This document shows positions 32,135 to 56,777 of a stretch of 56,949 bases of DNA, piece after piece. Every line of letters begins with the position of its first letter. The stretch's first letter is position 1. Made by a program: the position numbers and the translations under genes. The notes beneath the pieces are model-generated. The model searched no databases, was not told where the DNA came from, and was given only the letters and a program-made list of their open reading frames with translations. The DNA comes from Thiomargarita sp. (lineage in GTDB: Bacteria > Pseudomonadota > Gammaproteobacteria > Beggiatoales > Beggiatoaceae), in NCBI GenBank assembly GCA_020726335.1, contig DYSU01000006.1:3183-60131 (forward strand). Direction: 5' to 3'.

Positions 32135-33256
32135 TTAAAAATAACGCAAATAGACAGCTTCATCGCGTTCAATCCATTGTTGGCGTGAAAACAAGGTTTC
32201 CACTTTTTTTCTGGCCGCAACCCCATAAGTCAAATAGCGTTTGTCGTGGAGTATTTGGGTCATTTTTTGACACAAATCTGCGGCATTGGCCGCCGCAAAC
32301 AACAGCCCTGTTTCGCCATCGCTGACCACTTCAGGACAACCGCCGATATTGGGGGCAATCACCGCTTTGCCTGCGGCCATCGCTTCTCTGGCGGCCAACG
32401 GAAACGATTCGCGGGTGGATGACAACACAAACACATGCAACAAGGCCAAATAATCGGCGATGTTGCGTTGACTGCCGCAAAAATGCACCACCCGCGCCAA
32501 ACCCAAACTCTGGCGCAACGAGCGCAAACGGTTCAACAAAGGGCCATCGCCGATGATCAAAAGGCGTACATCACGGTCGTGGGCGTACAATTGTTCAAAC
32601 GCATACAACAAATAGTCGTGGCCTTTTTCTTCGGACAAACGGGCGACAATGCCGAAAATTTTGTGTTGATTGGGGTCAAGTTGATAGCGGTGATACAATA
32701 ATTTTTTTGCGGGCTTGGGTGAAAATTGATCCGTATCAATGCCGCTGTGAATCACTTCACTTTTTTTAGCACTTAAGCCACTGTTTAATAAACGGTTTCG
32801 TTCGTAGTGCGATTCAAAAATCACATAATCACTGCAAAGATTCAACAGCAAACCAACATAGCTGAAATGGCGGGGATTGTGGATGTTGTGAATGGTGGTG
32901 ATGATGGGCAAGGCTTTGCCTGTTTTAGCCACTTTGTAATCAAATCCCCAGCGCAAGGCAAAATAGCTGATTAAAGTGGTGCGCACTGATTGCGGTGCGA
33001 GCATATCAATTTGATATTCTTTAATAATTTTTTGTAAGGTTTTAACCGCCCGCCAAAAACTGCGCCAGCCATTAAAATGAAAAGCGACGGGAATCAAATG
33101 CGCACCTGTGGCTTGTAGCTCCGTTTGCAAACAGCCTGTTTCGGTGGCGACATGCACTTGATGACCTTTGGGAATTAAACCGCCCGACAAAGCCAGCATA
33201 TCCGATTGTACACCGCCCAAACCCAAAGGTTCAGTCATTAAATAGAGTAATTTCAT
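32135..33256 (-). CDS. Glycosyltransferase family 4/GT-B protein
   Basis: The 373 residues form a two-domain GT-B enzyme. The N-terminal domain begins LYLMTEPLGLGGVQSDMLAL, the glycine-rich acceptor loop; the C-terminal domain has GIVARLSEEKGHDYLLYAF, the EX7E motif in ESFPLAARE, and GGCPEVVSDGETGLLF, the nucleotide-sugar site. Such enzymes build surface polysaccharides. The start overlaps the deacetylase gene stop (ATGA at 33253-33256), so the pair probably makes and trims the same glycan. Confidence 0.92.
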   Translation of the reverse strand: MKLLYLMTEPLGLGGVQSDMLALSGGLIPKGHQVHVATETGCLQTELQATGAHLIPVAFHFNGWRSFWRAVKTLQKIIKEYQIDMLAPQSVRTTLISYFALRWGFDYKVAKTGKALPIITTIHNIHNPRHFSYVGLLLNLCSDYVIFESHYERNRLLNSGLSAKKSEVIHSGIDTDQFSPKPAKKLLYHRYQLDPNQHKIFGIVARLSEEKGHDYLLYAFEQLYAHDRDVRLLIIGDGPLLNRLRSLRQSLGLARVVHFCGSQRNIADYLALLHVFVLSSTRESFPLAAREAMAAGKAVIAPNIGGCPEVVSDGETGLLFAAANAADLCQKMTQILHDKRYLTYGVAARKKVETLFSRQQWIERDEAVYLRYF

Positions 33257-34077
33257 TTCATCATCCTTGTGCGTTTCCAGTGCAATAATTGGTGGATGGG
33301 GTCAAAACCACCGCTTAATTTGCGTTGAAAATCAATGGGTTCATCCTTGTCCGTGATTTCTGTGCGCTTCAATGCCCACAAGGGTGTGGCGGCGGTGTTC
33401 AAGCCGGGTGCCACGGTCACCGCCGCTTGATAACCTGCTTTTTGCACCCAATCCATTTCTCGCGCTCGCATATTCCCTGAGGGATAGCAAAAAAAAGCGG
33501 GGGCTTGTCCCAATTTTTCAGCCAAAATCTGCCGACTGTCGTTGATTTCTTGCCAGGCTTGTGCGTTGGATAATTCAGTCAAATAGGGGTGTTGGCAGGT
33601 GTGGGAACCGATGTCAAACAGCGCGTGTTTGGCCAATTGTTGCACTTCTTGCCAATTGAGATGCAAACGTTGTGCGGTTTGGCCATAGCGTGGATGTTGT
33701 TGAGTTTGTTGACAAAACTCTGTGGTGACAAAAAAAGTGGCGGGTAATTGATAGTGCAATAAAAGAGGCACTGCATACAATAAGTTATCTAAATAACCGT
33801 CATCAAACGTCAGCACCACCTGCGGTTTTTCATCGCTGGTTGTCGCCCGTTGTGCCACCATTTGCGCCAGCGAAATCACTTGATGGTTTTCGGCTAACCA
33901 CGCCATTTGGGTGGCAAAACGCGCAGGCGCAACGCTCAATTGATCATCATCTGCGCGGGCATCAACGCGGTGATACATTAAAATTCGCACCCCTTGGTGG
34001 TGACGATAATACCGCTGTTGGTAATAAAAATGACAAAGAGGTTGGCAACTGGCAGATAAAACACGGCGTATGTTCAT
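33253..34077 (-). CDS. Polysaccharide deacetylase (NodB-homology domain)
   Basis: The 274 residues contain a complete NodB domain: LTFDDGYLDN (catalytic base and metal Asp), IGSHTCQHPYL (metal His pair) and FCYPSGN. It removes N-acetyl groups from a polysaccharide, most likely the product of the coupled glycosyltransferase. The N-terminal basic stretch (LYHRV preceded by HHQGVRI) resembles family members involved in surface glycans. No clear signal peptide was seen. ftsK-like follows 53 bases upstream on the same strand. Confidence 0.9.
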   Translation of the reverse strand: MNIRRVLSASCQPLCHFYYQQRYYRHHQGVRILMYHRVDARADDDQLSVAPARFATQMAWLAENHQVISLAQMVAQRATTSDEKPQVVLTFDDGYLDNLLYAVPLLLHYQLPATFFVTTEFCQQTQQHPRYGQTAQRLHLNWQEVQQLAKHALFDIGSHTCQHPYLTELSNAQAWQEINDSRQILAEKLGQAPAFFCYPSGNMRAREMDWVQKAGYQAAVTVAPGLNTAATPLWALKRTEITDKDEPIDFQRKLSGGFDPIHQLLHWKRTRMMK

Positions 34078-34130: not shown

Positions 34131-36206
34131 TTATCCCGTGATGCTTTGATACTGTGGTTGACCTTGTTTGCGCAGTTCAGCCACGACGTTGCGGATTTCG
34201 CTCAAAGTCACTTGCGCACCGTGAGCGCGCACAAGCACACCTGTGCCGGGGGTCAAATACAGCATATCACCTTGACCCAGCAAGGTTTCCGCGCCGTTTT
34301 GTCCCAAAATATTGTGCGCGGTGTTGGGGTCTTTGACTTTGAAGGCAATGCGGGTGGAAAAATTGGTTTTCATCAAACCGCTGACCACATGAATGGTCGG
34401 TTCGCTGGTGGCGATCACCATGTGAATCCCCGCCGCACGGGCTTTTTGTGCCAGACGGCTGATGTGTTCTTCTAAATTTTTTTGCGCCTGTTCTAAGCTG
34501 TTGTTTTGTAAGGCGGCCAGTTCATGCACCACGATGATGAGGTAGGGCAAGGGTTCAGGCAGATTGGCAGTGTCGGCTGTTTTCAGAGCCTGTAGTTTTT
34601 GTTGTTGCTCCATCCTTTGATTATAGCCGCTGATGTTGCGCAAACCTTGCGCGCTCATTAAATGATAACGGCGTTCCATTTCGTTGACGCACCAGCGAAA
34701 CACGGGTTCAGCTTGGCTTAAGTCATTGATAATAGGGGTGATTAAATACGGTATGTCACGGTATTCATCCAAAACTTTGCGCGTTGAGTCAAATAAAATG
34801 AAACGGCTGGGGGTTTTTTCCGCTTTATAAAACAGGCTCAACAATAAACTGTGCAAGGCTTTGTCGATGTCGCTGGGGTCTTCGCCAGCCAATAATAGAT
34901 GCGGCATCCGCGCCAAATCCAACACCATGGGGTGGTTGTTGATGTCTTTTCCCAACGCAAAACCCAAGGTGGCATTGCCTTTTTGGAATAAATTACTGCG
35001 CAACAACGTACCCAGCAAAATGGTTTCAGGCGTGGGGTTTGGCACTTCCAAGCTGACTTGTTCGGCCAAAACAGTGCTGATGCGCACGCCTTTTTCACCC
35101 AATTCGCTCAACACCAAGCTGGCAACGCGGTTGCTTTGCGCTAAATCAACGGCGTTCAGTTGAATATCCACGCGGGTGAGAATCGGGCCTGACGGTGCAA
35201 TTTGAATATTGCCATCTAAATCAAGCTGTTGTAAAATCGTTTTAAGCTGTTGGCTTAGCTGTTGGCGATTGAGTTGTTTGCTCGGCACCACAGGGGTTTG
35301 TTTTAACGCATCCAGTTGCGATTCATCTTGAATCACGGGCGTGGGCGCAGGCGGCTTAACAGGCGCGGTTTTGACAGGCACCACAGGGACAACAGGTTTA
35401 GGCGGTTGTTTTTCCTCAATTTCCTCATCGTCATCATATTCGACATGACCAAAACGCTGGCGCAACAACCACCATTGTTCATCCAAATAGTGCCAAACCG
35501 CGATGGCCGCGACTTTCAGCCAGTGCAACGCATAAAAGAAATAGTCCCAAAACAAAGGCAATACTTTATTTTCAATAAAACTCAAAACGATGGGCAAATT
35601 TTTCAAGGTGTAATAGCCCAAGATGTCCATCAATCGCAACCACGACAAGCCCGTCAATAATGTCACGCCCGTGAAAAACAACGCCAACAAGACCAAGGTT
35701 GCCCCCAATTGGCTGAAAATGCTTTCTAAACTGCGCCCGACCAATTGCCCCAAAACACCGCCTGCGTGGCTGGGCAATAACGCGCTTTCCGCGCTGAAAT
35801 GTACAATGGCCAGACCACAACCCGCGCTCAAAGTCAATAAAAAGCCCAAACCGGGAATCACTAAAATTTTGGGTTCGGCCAATAAAATCTTGTGTTTGCC
35901 TTGATAAATCAGCCAACCCAAATGGGCCACCATGATGGCGAATAAATAAGAGAAATAGCCGAACAAATTAAAAAAAGCATCGGCAAAATAGGAACCCGCC
36001 AAGCCGCCTTTGTTGTTGACCACGGTATTTTGATCGACTACATCGGACCATGTGGGGTCTAATGGGTTGTAGGTGAGCAAAGAAATGAATAAATACAATG
36101 AAATAAAGCAAAAACCGATAAAGACGATTTCACGCAAGCCCGCACCGATGACATGGTTGTTGTTGTTATTGGTCGGTCTTTTTCGATTATAACGACGTGC
36201 TTGCAT
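34131..36206 (-). CDS. FtsK/SpoIIIE homologue with degenerate ATPase motifs
   Basis: The 691 residues follow the FtsK plan: four N-terminal membrane segments (about 25-210), a Pro-rich linker (265-310), an alpha domain (310-385), and the RecA-like motor region (385-680) with many conserved blocks such as ARMPHLLLAG, FRWCVNEMERRYHLMSA, RLAQKARAAGIHMVIAT and GAETLLGQGDMLYL. However, the Walker A slot (441-450) reads GEDPSDIDKA instead of GTTGSGKSV, and the Walker B Asp-Glu is HE (561-562). The ATQRPS motif has become ATSEPT. The C-terminal gamma DNA-recognition domain is absent. It cannot be a normal ATP-driven translocase as read. Confidence 0.9.
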   Translation of the reverse strand: MQARRYNRKRPTNNNNNHVIGAGLREIVFIGFCFISLYLFISLLTYNPLDPTWSDVVDQNTVVNNKGGLAGSYFADAFFNLFGYFSYLFAIMVAHLGWLIYQGKHKILLAEPKILVIPGLGFLLTLSAGCGLAIVHFSAESALLPSHAGGVLGQLVGRSLESIFSQLGATLVLLALFFTGVTLLTGLSWLRLMDILGYYTLKNLPIVLSFIENKVLPLFWDYFFYALHWLKVAAIAVWHYLDEQWWLLRQRFGHVEYDDDEEIEEKQPPKPVVPVVPVKTAPVKPPAPTPVIQDESQLDALKQTPVVPSKQLNRQQLSQQLKTILQQLDLDGNIQIAPSGPILTRVDIQLNAVDLAQSNRVASLVLSELGEKGVRISTVLAEQVSLEVPNPTPETILLGTLLRSNLFQKGNATLGFALGKDINNHPMVLDLARMPHLLLAGEDPSDIDKALHSLLLSLFYKAEKTPSRFILFDSTRKVLDEYRDIPYLITPIINDLSQAEPVFRWCVNEMERRYHLMSAQGLRNISGYNQRMEQQQKLQALKTADTANLPEPLPYLIIVVHELAALQNNSLEQAQKNLEEHISRLAQKARAAGIHMVIATSEPTIHVVSGLMKTNFSTRIAFKVKDPNTAHNILGQNGAETLLGQGDMLYLTPGTGVLVRAHGAQVTLSEIRNVVAELRKQGQPQYQSITG

Positions 36207-37667: not shown

Positions 37668-37743
<76 letters not shown>

Positions 37744-37764
37744 TTCTTTTAAAAACAGTGTTGC

Positions 37765-37835
37765 GGCTGAGTGGCAGAGTGGTTATGCAGCGGCCTGCAA
37801 AGCCGTGTACATCGGTTCGATTCCGTTCTCAGCCT
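37765..37835 (+). tRNA. tRNA-Cys (GCA)
   Basis: A 71-base cloverleaf with acceptor GGCTGAG/CTCAGCC, discriminator T and anticodon GCA (CCTGCAAAG). Unlike the other tRNA genes here, no CCA is encoded (TTA follows), so CCA must be added by tRNA nucleotidyltransferase. Confidence 0.93.
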
Positions 37836-37854
37836 TATCCAAAAAAAATCCAAA

Positions 37855-37941
37855 GCCCAGGTGGCGAAATAGGTAGACGCAAGGGACTTAAAATCCCTCG
37901 GTAGTAATACCGTGCCGGTTCGACTCCGGCTCTGGGCACCA
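37855..37941 (+). tRNA. tRNA-Leu (TAA)
   Basis: An 87-base class II tRNA with a long variable arm, anticodon loop CTTAAAA (anticodon TAA), acceptor GCCCAGG/TCTGGGC with one G-T pair, and encoded CCA. Confidence 0.95.
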
Positions 37942-54138: not shown

Positions 54139-54927
54139 ATGCCCGATTTACCCATTTTGCTGTACCACAACTTGGAACAACAGCGCGTCCAATACCAACC
54201 CAAACCCGCCATTGAACGCCCGTATATTCTGCCGTTAGACCTTTTCAAACAACACATGGCCTGTTTGGCTCAAAACGGGTATCAAACCATTTTACCGCAA
54301 CAAATTCAACAACCTGAACAATGGCCCGCCCAGCCTGTGATGATCAGCTTTGATAATGGCCACGAAGCCCAACACCGTTTGGCCCTGCCGATATTGCAAC
54401 AATATGGTTTTAAAGCCGTTTTTTTCATCACCACCGATTATATTGAGCGTTCCGATTACATGACAGCGGACAACTTGCATACTTTGGTCGAACAAGGCAT
54501 GGCGATTGGCTCGCACGGCGTAAGCCACCAATCATTGGACGATGTGCCGCGCATTGAAATCGAACACGAATTAAGCGAATCCCAAAACCTGTTGCAAAAG
54601 CTGGTTGGCCAAACCATCGACAGCTTTGCCGCACCTTGTGGCCAACAACACCCCGACATGCCCAGCATTTGTCTGTCTGTGGGCTATCGCACCGTATTTG
54701 GTGCGCGTTTTGGTTATTACAATCCACAAAAAAGCCGCTTTGACATCCCACGCATTGCCATTAAACGCGATTGCAATTTGAAACAATTCAAACACCTGCT
54801 ACAACAACAACCACACACCCTTCAGCGTTTATACCTGCAAGACAACGTATTGTTTGCCGCCAAATTTTTATTGGGCAAAGCCGCCTATCAAAAAACCCGC
54901 GAAGCCTTGCTGGGCTGGTGGTATTGA
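54139..54927 (+). CDS. Polysaccharide deacetylase-like protein with altered metal motif
   Basis: The 262 residues belong to the NodB fold: MISFDNGHEAQHR in the place of TFDDG, SHGVSHQSL for the metal His pair, and a late FAAPCG. The second Asp of TFDDG, a metal ligand, is Asn, so activity may be reduced or lost. The first Asp (catalytic base) and the two His remain. GGAGG precedes the ATG. No signal peptide was seen. It follows the sensor and response-regulator pair, which suggests a role in surface glycans or biofilm. Confidence 0.82.
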   Translation: MPDLPILLYHNLEQQRVQYQPKPAIERPYILPLDLFKQHMACLAQNGYQTILPQQIQQPEQWPAQPVMISFDNGHEAQHRLALPILQQYGFKAVFFITTDYIERSDYMTADNLHTLVEQGMAIGSHGVSHQSLDDVPRIEIEHELSESQNLLQKLVGQTIDSFAAPCGQQHPDMPSICLSVGYRTVFGARFGYYNPQKSRFDIPRIAIKRDCNLKQFKHLLQQQPHTLQRLYLQDNVLFAAKFLLGKAAYQKTREALLGWWY

Positions 54928-55012: not shown

Positions 55013-55050
55013 TGGTATCAATTTATGATTGATAAGTTTATGGTATCAAT
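55013..55050. promoter_or_regulatory. Operator-like repeats upstream of the DUF262 gene
   Basis: TATCAAT (55016-55022) and ATTGATA (55028-55034) form a perfect inverted repeat with a 5-base spacer. TGGTATCAAT occurs directly at 55013-55022 and again at 55041-55050. Three copies of one half-site just ahead of the start suggest a repressor site, perhaps for control of a defence gene. Confidence 0.45.
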
Positions 55051-55082
55051 CAGACGGGAACAAATATGAGGCCAGAGACCCT

Positions 55083-56777
55083 ATGAAAGCAGCAGAAGAA
55101 AAGATTCAGGAAATCTTTGCCACCCGTAAATATTTTATTCCATCCTACCAACGGCCCTATAGCTGGGATGAAGATAATGCCAAAGAGCTTGTTGATGACA
55201 TTTATGAAAGTTATAAAGAGACCAGCAAAGAATATTTCATTGGGTCTTTAATTTGTATTTCTAAAGATAGCAGTACTTTTGAGGTTGTCGATGGACAGCA
55301 AAGATTGATTACAATGACTTTACTTTTCAAAGCATTAATCGAAAGTGTTCCAATTGAAGATGTAAAATATGATTTAAAAAATAAGATAATTTTAAAGGAT
55401 GTTTATAACAATAAGAACGCTGAGGTAGAACCACGCATCAGAGTGAGAAATAAAGAATTCGATGTTTATATGCATTATCTTTTGCAAGGAGACAAAAAAT
55501 TTTTACCCAAAAATCCATCCTATACTCAACAATTATTGATTAAGAATTTTGATGTTTTCCTTAAGTATTTTGAAGCAAGAAAAAATGAAGGCGTTGATTT
55601 GCGGGAGTTTACGGGTTTTATATTAAATAATGTTTATGTTGTTTTCGTCACCACTAACAGCTTTGCTTCATCATATAGATTATTTAACGTCCTTAATACC
55701 CGTGGATTATCTTTGTCACAGTCAGATTTGATAAAGAATAAAATATTTGAAATTGCAGAGGAGAATAAGATTAATCATGATGATATTGAACGCCATTGGG
55801 ATGAAATTGAGAATTTAATTGGTATTCAACATATGGATGGTTTTTTGATAGCAAATGAAATATCTCAACAGAAAACGCGTGATCAAGCTGCTGTTCCTAG
55901 AACAAAATTGGTTGAAGCAGTAACAAAAAGAATTCAAGAAAAATATAAGAGTGAAATGTTAGCGTTTACTTCAGATTTAAAAAAATCCGCTATAAACTAT
56001 AAAAAAATAAAAGATATAGATTTTGATGGTAGTCTAAGAAATATTTTATATTGCTTAAATTTCTTTGAGTCAGATGAATGGATGACTGCCTTTTTAGCTT
56101 TTTTAAATAAAACAGATGAAAATAATGGCCCTTTAAAGTTTCATGATTTTAAAAAATTTGTAGAATTCTTTGAAAAAGTATATCTGCATAAATGGTTTTC
56201 AGAAGAAGCTAAAGGTCAACGTAGGGTGGTCTGTTACGCCGCAATAGTAGAAATAAACAGCAATAAACAATTACACGGTATTATTCAATCACTTTATAAA
56301 TACAAAAATAATGAAGGTTTAGAGAATTATTTGAACAGTGATGTCTATGACAAAAATTCTTCTAGTAAACTGAGATTAATAAGATATGTATTATTTAGAA
56401 TTGATCAATATATGCAGGATGAAAGCATAACAAAAATTTACCATGGTACAATTACAATTGAACATATTTTACCTAAAACTATAAATAACGTATATTGGAA
56501 TATAAGATTTAGTGAGGAAGAACAACGGCAATGGGTGCATAAATTAGGAAATTTGACGCTTATAAGCGGTGTAAAAAATTCACAAGCGTCTAACAGTGGT
56601 TTCAATAAAAAGATGGATATTTATAAAGGAGGAGATAAGGGAGATAAGAAAGTATCTTTCGATATTGCTAAAGAAATTTTAAATTATTCTGAATGGAATT
56701 TAGATTCTTTAAGTAAACGACACGAAAAATTGATTGGCCTTTCTAAAGATATATGGTACATAACACCGCTTTCCTGA
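55083..56777 (+). CDS. DUF262/DUF1524 protein (GmrSD-type putative defence nuclease)
   Basis: The 564 residues have an N-terminal DUF262 domain with SYQRPYSW (21-28) and the nucleotide-binding signature DGQQR (70-74), a long helical middle, and a C-terminal DUF1524 domain with the HNH-like His461 in EHILPK and LGNLTLIS...NS. This fused layout is that of GmrSD-type type IV restriction enzymes, which cut modified phage DNA, and of related defence proteins. The gene is clearly more AT-rich than its neighbours, with codons such as AAA, ATA and TTA favoured, pointing to transfer. ATG 55083 is preferred over a TTG at 55029; its ribosome binding site is weak. It has no defence partners in the window. 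Confidence 0.87.
   Translation: MKAAEEKIQEIFATRKYFIPSYQRPYSWDEDNAKELVDDIYESYKETSKEYFIGSLICISKDSSTFEVVDGQQRLITMTLLFKALIESVPIEDVKYDLKNKIILKDVYNNKNAEVEPRIRVRNKEFDVYMHYLLQGDKKFLPKNPSYTQQLLIKNFDVFLKYFEARKNEGVDLREFTGFILNNVYVVFVTTNSFASSYRLFNVLNTRGLSLSQSDLIKNKIFEIAEENKINHDDIERHWDEIENLIGIQHMDGFLIANEISQQKTRDQAAVPRTKLVEAVTKRIQEKYKSEMLAFTSDLKKSAINYKKIKDIDFDGSLRNILYCLNFFESDEWMTAFLAFLNKTDENNGPLKFHDFKKFVEFFEKVYLHKWFSEEAKGQRRVVCYAAIVEINSNKQLHGIIQSLYKYKNNEGLENYLNSDVYDKNSSSKLRLIRYVLFRIDQYMQDESITKIYHGTITIEHILPKTINNVYWNIRFSEEEQRQWVHKLGNLTLISGVKNSQASNSGFNKKMDIYKGGDKGDKKVSFDIAKEILNYSEWNLDSLSKRHEKLIGLSKDIWYITPLS

Follow-up and report, generated by a model that had tools for sequence, protein, structure and literature searches.

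A family-wide pseudo-translocase FtsK in the Beggiatoaceae

Introduction

In most bacteria FtsK is usually regarded as a DNA pump at the septum, where it clears chromosomes from the site of division. A gene of Thiomargarita sp. raises the question of what an FtsK may be kept for when its motor lacks the residues that a motor needs. It lies in the window, by which we mean the whole stretch of 56,949 nucleotides analysed here (positions 3183-60131 of contig C5 in a 2.10 Mb genome of 88 contigs that is 96.8% complete). A sequence-only reading of this DNA had described an FtsK homologue with a kept membrane domain and most of the motor fold, without the P-loop, the Walker B aspartate and the gamma domain; it argued against random decay, and suggested a structural divisome protein derived from FtsK, with a true translocase elsewhere. 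We have followed the gene through its own genome and through the Beggiatoaceae, a family that includes the largest known bacteria; none of the searched genomes was recognised as that of T. namibiensis or T. magnifica. The family set consists of 42 genomes. Its name rests on 31 named loci (L062-L092), which are labelled Beggiatoa, Thioploca, Thiomargarita sp., Candidatus Marithrix, Parabeggiatoa, Halobeggiatoa, Albibeggiatoa and Venteria or bear unspecific or odd MAG labels.

Results

The window protein retains the membrane domain and predicted motor fold of FtsK without the catalytic residues

Pfam recognises both the membrane domain (PF13491, 126.4 bits, cut-off 23.1) and the motor (FtsK_SpoIIIE, PF01580, residues 401-603, E 7.1e-39, 134 bits, cut-off 24), the alpha domain (PF17854) is sub-threshold, and FtsK_gamma (PF09397) is absent from the Pfam matches of the protein (Table 1). 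Homology to the motors of the E. coli and P. aeruginosa FtsK structures ends at residues 686-687, and the stop follows four to five residues later. An AlphaFold model of residues 298-691 built from 30 rows has a mean pLDDT of 90.4 and a pTM of 0.89. Among known structures it most resembles the FtsK motors of E. coli and P. aeruginosa (2ius_A, E 6.6e-41), and against the FtsK motor 6t8b_D it gives a Z of 45.4 and an rmsd of 2.3 over 383 residues. The retention of the membrane domain and of most of the motor fold is therefore borne out.

Table 1. Parts and active-site slots of the FtsK encoded in the window (window positions)
Feature	Position	Strand	Basis
ftsK orthologue, 691 aa, non-motor (pseudo-translocase)	34131..36206	-	ORF open throughout
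FtsK_4TM membrane domain, intact, residues 24-196	35619..36137	-	Pfam, E 1.2e-36
Short charged/proline-rich linker, residues 197-298	35313..35618	-	Position between Pfam domains
FtsK_alpha, diverged, residues 299-390	35037..35312	-	20.5 bits, below cut-off 22.9
Beta (RecA-like) motor fold without catalytic residues, residues 391-687	34146..35036	-	Pfam, AlphaFold model
Walker A slot, residues 441-448, GEDPSDID replacing GTTGSGKS	34863..34886	-	Alignment
Walker B slot, residues 556-562, LIIVVHE, Asp to His, Glu kept	34521..34541	-	Alignment
Residue 602, Glu replacing the QRPS Arg	34401..34403	-	Alignment
C-terminal end and stop, at the expected place of gamma	34131..34145	-	No PF09397

The P-loop slot in its wider extent reads GEDPSDIDKA. 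The protein thus has neither the Walker A motif GxxGxGK[ST], including its lysine, nor the Walker B aspartate, which are defining features of an FtsK translocase. It scores 333.2 bits with the NCBIfam model for the DNA translocase FtsK (PRK10263), below the equivalog cut-off of 1566, which a protein of 691 residues can hardly reach in a model of 1355 positions, and 50.2 bits with the type VII secretion EssC model (TIGR03928), where the equivalog cut-off is 778.4.

Several neighbouring genes were recorded. Three tRNA genes stand in a row (Gly-GCC, Cys-GCA and Leu-TAA, 37668-37941, plus strand) beside the proB-ftsK pair. Two polysaccharide deacetylase genes are present (33253-34077, minus strand, and 54139-54927, plus strand), one of them directly downstream of ftsK and next to a glycosyltransferase. 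A GmrSD-type restriction enzyme (55029-56777, plus strand) lies where the window is richest in AT (GC 0.393, 54-56 kb). A common neighbour of ftsK in gammaproteobacteria is lolA, and none stood out when the ORFs of two further loci (L062 and L065) were inspected by eye.

A single FtsK is found in the host genome

One protein of the host genome exceeds the PF01580 cut-off, and it is the window protein. A second, weak match (19.7 bits) is taken, judging from its sequence, for a putative GspE/PilB-like ATPase. Neither XerC nor XerD was found in this genome by profile search at E<=1e-20, and there is no dif-like site within one mismatch, so the XerCD-dif partnership of an FtsK translocase seems to be lacking here, as if the whole pathway had been lost and not relocated. 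The suggestion that a true translocase is encoded elsewhere is not upheld. DnaA is present (contig C42).

The motor is degenerate in all 35 Beggiatoaceae orthologues found

A search with the window protein gave a match in 50 of 57 genomes, its own included. PF01580 occurs in 36 of the 42 family genomes, and an orthologue of the window gene in 35; the 36th (G029) has only a short match of 25.5 bits. None of the 35 orthologues carries GxxxxGK[ST] in the motor, whereas all 36 homologues from outside the family read GTTGSGKS. An intact GxxGxGK[ST] in sister strains would have pointed to a local sequence error or recent decay; both are ruled out, since the degenerate slots are common to all 35. The lack of the P-loop, the Walker B aspartate and gamma thus holds well beyond the window protein.

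The last glycine of the P-loop (window residue 446) is replaced by an acid in 35/35 orthologues, glutamate in 31 and aspartate in 4. A 30-row set made up of the window protein and 29 of the 31 named loci, which omits L076 and L086 and largely overlaps with the 35, likewise has E or D at this position in every row. The Walker A lysine is kept in 23/35, with threonine at the next position in 7/35, and the Walker B aspartate in one (L035), with the Walker B glutamate kept in 34. The QRPS arginine (residue 602) is found in none of the family orthologues and in 22/22 active homologues. In the alignment of 35, one sequence (L023, from G022) is cut by a contig end and another (L016) has one extra residue in the P-loop.

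The active homologues number 22: 19 members of the class together with Ectothiorhodospira, Algicola and a single Pseudoalteromonas, another 14 rows of the last genus having been dropped. We took the columns that 95% or more of these homologues conserve, and called a column kept if 90% or more of the family retains it and lost if 10% or less does. All 10 such columns are kept in the 4TM domain, 52 of 138 are kept and 13 lost in the beta motor, and 4 of 29 are kept and 8 lost in alpha. Among the residues kept in 0/35 are two P-loop threonines, the last P-loop glycine, the Walker A serine (threonine in 7), the proline and leucine of the DPK..LE stretch, the QRPS arginine and the aspartate at 635 (glycine in 32). 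The losses have thus hit the active site, and much of the fold is kept.

In a quick maximum-likelihood tree of 57 rows a branch with SH-aLRT 100 separates the 35 family orthologues from all other rows, and a single origin is therefore the simplest reading. The matched stretches of the orthologues are free of internal stops. Estimates of dN/dS (NG86) for the beta motor are 0.060-0.228 in 14/14 close pairs; those for 4TM are 0.026-0.113 in the 13 pairs with computable dS and lie below the motor value in 13/13. These pairs are not independent of one another, and the window protein, which has 48% identity to its nearest relative, is in none of them. Among the close pairs the motor half is under purifying selection though it is without what a motor needs.

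Gamma, XerC/XerD and dif

FtsK gamma was found in 0/42 family genomes and in 351 of 370 genomes of a class sample, which is limited to genomes at least 90% complete and includes five of the family. The 19 gamma-less genomes of the sample comprise all five family members, three genomes of 300-400 kb (f19), in which there is no PF01580 match, and 11 scattered ones. Three of the 11 have intact GTTGSGKS; FtsK is cut by the end of the sequence stretch in two of these (G086 and G254), and in the third (G219) the frame ends without a gamma match. A fourth (G242) has another FtsK-like protein with GSSGSGKS, and in the other seven there is either no match or a short, weak one of at most 25.3 bits. Leaving those seven aside, no dead FtsK was seen outside the family in the class sample.

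The XerD model matches 12/42 family genomes at E<=1e-20 and exceeds its cut-off in one (G004); the other matches are a 179-aa fragment in G026 (135.5 bits) and proteins of 90 bits or less. The XerC model matches 13/42, strongly (>220 bits) only in the case of the same G004 XerD gene (294.7 bits), followed by the G026 fragment (148 bits) and matches of 101 bits or less that may include generic integrases. In the outgroup, 18/19 genomes match the XerC model, 16 of them strongly. The G004 XerD (369.6 bits; L170) is at one end of a 6-kb contig (C61) whose GC is 0.543, compared with 0.537 for the ftsK contig, and the G026 XerC-like fragment (L171) is on a contig (C81) of GC 0.333; either of these could be a remnant or a contaminant.

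Searches for dif used the pattern CGYATAAN6TTATGTTAAAT, which we take to describe dif-like sites, with one mismatch allowed and the reversed pattern as control. Dif-like sites were found in 2/42 family genomes, with central bases unlike dif, and the control in 3/42, and they seem to be at chance level only. Outgroup genomes gave sites in 12/19 and none with the control; the pattern misses 7/19, so a diverged dif could escape it.

DnaA and strand polarity in the family

DnaA (TIGR00362) is over cut-off in 19/19 outgroup genomes, compared with 16/42 of the family. The remaining 26 family genomes have no match to the DnaA model at E<=1e-10, hence no Hda-like match either. It is missing from 15 of the 30 family genomes with a completeness of 90% or more and a contamination of 5% or less, and the DnaA-less set includes a single contig of 4.81 Mb (G002), which adjoins a Thioploca MAG (G026) on the tree. 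Nineteen of the 26 have FtsK and form one clade on the FtsK tree (SH-aLRT 99), requiring one change; the other seven are not placeable on that tree. FtsK was not found with the family profile in two genera, g13 (two genomes) and g17 (three genomes; G012, G029, G016, G031 and G062 in all), whose completeness is 52-99% and which are also without DnaA. Two further genomes in which FtsK was missed (G034 and G058) are 59-63% complete.

GC skew was sampled in 20 stretches of 20 kb with a first-harmonic fit and permutations, the controls G161 and G324 having 10 points each. The three family genomes sampled are each in one to three contigs (G028, G010 and G002; L173-L192, L253-L272 and L213-L232), and a first-harmonic skew is absent from all three (R2 0.07, 0.04 and 0.09, respectively). 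The outgroup values are 0.70 for G054 (0/5000 permutations as high), 0.76 for G161 (p 0.017) and 0.48 for G324 (p 0.11), and a two-arm sign test is not significant for the 10-point controls G161 and G324, 145 and 108 of 500 shuffles being as high. Skew in G010 is negative in 16/20 stretches, which is not two-armed, yet not patternless. Because G028 and G010 have DnaA, the loss of polarity does not track the loss of DnaA. Frequent rearrangement is an alternative way in which skew could be erased.

Counts of the KOPS motif GGGNAGGG in the 20 sampled stretches, with leading and lagging strands assigned after the best split had been chosen on the same data, are 14:13 (leading:lagging) in G028, 12:15 in G002 and 18:11 in G010; control octamers give 49:52, 63:61 and 62:31. 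In the outgroup genome G054 the ratio is 62:28 for KOPS and 229:128 for control octamers, and because the control octamers are polarised there too, KOPS adds little beyond GC skew. A polarisation of KOPS in G010 that had appeared from a partial list of places was rejected, as the samples show the motif on both strands.

Discussion

The window protein is an FtsK by descent and, judged by Walker A, Walker B, gamma and XerCD-dif, it is not an FtsK translocase; it is best called a family-wide pseudo-translocase FtsK. It shares with the FtsK of E. coli and P. aeruginosa (2IUS, 2IUT, 6T8B) the domain order 4TM-linker-alpha-beta, with alpha sub-threshold here, and 34-38% identity in the motor, and differs from them in having no P-loop, Walker B aspartate, QRPS arginine or gamma; the XerCD and dif partners of those proteins are likewise not found in the family, apart from a single XerD of uncertain origin. 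Its fold is also related to that of the EssC/EccC type VII secretion ATPases of the FtsK/SpoIIIE superfamily (4nh0_B, Z 29.6), which are, unlike the window protein, multi-module secretion proteins. Some EssC/EccC ATPase modules are degenerate and are used in regulation or substrate binding, so that non-catalytic FtsK folds are not without precedent.

Inactive domains of the FtsK type have been described before. One paper reports FtsK-type ATPase domains predicted to be inactive in biological conflict systems, with Beggiatoa among the carriers of one (PMC7159879); unlike the window protein, these are effector-type domains rather than the cell's own division FtsK. We found no published report of a family-wide motorless FtsK in a search that left most subscription literature outside, and so claim no priority. 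Literature that names the genera of this family together with FtsK, XerC or DnaA uses these in other contexts in the passages checked.

Our preferred explanation is that the ancestral FtsK-XerCD-dif system has been dismantled in the family and that FtsK is kept as a non-motor divisome scaffold, to which we give a probability of roughly three in four; we infer the scaffold role, the septal location, the oligomeric state and polyploidy as the cause. The window gene would be the vertically inherited Beggiatoaceae FtsK, changed in the family ancestor from a septal DNA pump to a non-motor divisome protein. Its 4TM domain would stay at the septum, bridging early and late division proteins, and the retained motor fold would act as an ATP-independent structural module, either an oligomeric ring or a docking surface, rather than a translocase. 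The change was probably accompanied by the loss of its partners gamma, XerC/XerD and dif, and recombinational chromosome dimers would therefore no longer be resolved by FtsK-XerCD at the septum. A divisome scaffold is the most economical reading because motor, gamma, XerCD and dif are missing while 4TM and the fold are kept. The sequence-only reading is supported where it derives the protein from FtsK, without the ATPase and KOPS-reading parts, and where it argues against random decay, and its proposed part in division is plausible. The weak conservation of alpha, and the higher dN/dS of the motor than of 4TM in every computable pair, count against a scaffold. Since FtsK is missing from the five genomes of g13 and g17, even the scaffold seems dispensable in some members.

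The likely cause would be the possession of many chromosome copies without a fixed ori-ter axis, such that clearing one particular terminus from the septum stops mattering. High polyploidy is reported for giant bacterial cells (PMC10580974), and in cyanobacteria ploidy has been linked to the loss of both DnaA dependence and a regular GC skew (PMC7198777). The likeness to those dnaA-less polyploid cyanobacteria extends to the loss of a core chromosome-cycle factor, an irregular GC skew and a proposed link to ploidy; that study concerns the replication initiator, however, and its text contains no mention of 'ftsK', whereas in the Beggiatoaceae no orthologue has kept the FtsK motor and DnaA is lost in some members. 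Ploidy cannot by itself account for a lost motor, because Deinococcus radiodurans, also described as polyploid, has an FtsK for which consensus ATP- and DNA-binding motifs are reported (PMC9764985). Buchnera also divides without an FtsK motor, but is a reduced endosymbiont without the gene (PMC10591338), whereas this family keeps a dead version.

Other functions for the protein have to be weighed. A dead ring might be a passive DNA clamp that needs no ATP and serves as a tether or checkpoint by encircling or holding DNA at the septum; this would account for the retained motor fold, for the motor columns shared with active homologues and for the purifying selection on them. However, mean lysine plus arginine in the motor falls from 31.6 in the 22 active homologues to 24.6 in the family, mean net charge shifts from -3.5 to -6.8, and the sequence reader gamma is not found, making a clamp unlikely. 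We regard as more doubtful still a decaying relic, in which only 4TM matters and the motor half is being lost. The absence of FtsK from g13 and g17, the diverged alpha domain and the dN/dS of the motor relative to 4TM would fit such decay, but the motor ratios are low in all 14 pairs, the orthologues have no stops in their matched stretches, the new acid at residue 446 is conserved throughout and the fold is modelled with high confidence.

It is very improbable that translocation has passed to another gene and left the window gene as a spare paralogue, for although further PF01580 proteins over cut-off occur in a few family genomes (G013:C105, G061:C512, G017:C402, G009:C66 and G002), there is none in the host genome, gamma, XerCD and dif are not found, and the window gene is itself the vertically inherited copy, forming one clade with its orthologues. 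An ATPase still active through an unorthodox P-loop, to which the frequent Walker A lysine, the occasional threonine beside it and the near-universal Walker B glutamate might point, is scarcely credible given the acid at the last P-loop glycine, the loss of the Walker B aspartate in 34/35 and of the QRPS arginine in all, and the missing Walker A lysine of the window protein itself.

A broader proposal, for which we consider the odds to be even, is that the Beggiatoaceae took the ori-to-ter cycle apart stepwise, the terminus side first and the origin side later, arriving at a free-living dnaA-less life outside the cyanobacteria. The common ancestor would have lost the FtsK motor and gamma, XerCD and dif, together with strand-polarised replication. 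The loss of DnaA and of its relative Hda would have followed in a subclade that contains Thioploca, Marithrix, Parabeggiatoa, Halobeggiatoa and some Thiomargarita-labelled MAGs, and two genera would have lost FtsK as well. Many chromosome copies would then be replicated from dispersed origins, with FtsK surviving only as the division scaffold. In 2020 no free-living loss of dnaA had been reported outside cyanobacteria, according to the paper on dnaA-less cyanobacteria (PMC7198777), and the loss of DnaA in this family, if true, adds such cases.

Every FtsK orthologue seen in the family is motorless, and the dimer-resolution enzymes and their site were not found, so the division role of FtsK appears to have been split from its motor role family-wide. 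This suggests that the Beggiatoaceae divide without the usual end-of-chromosome machinery, and provides a genomic handle on DNA replication and partition in a family that includes giant bacteria.
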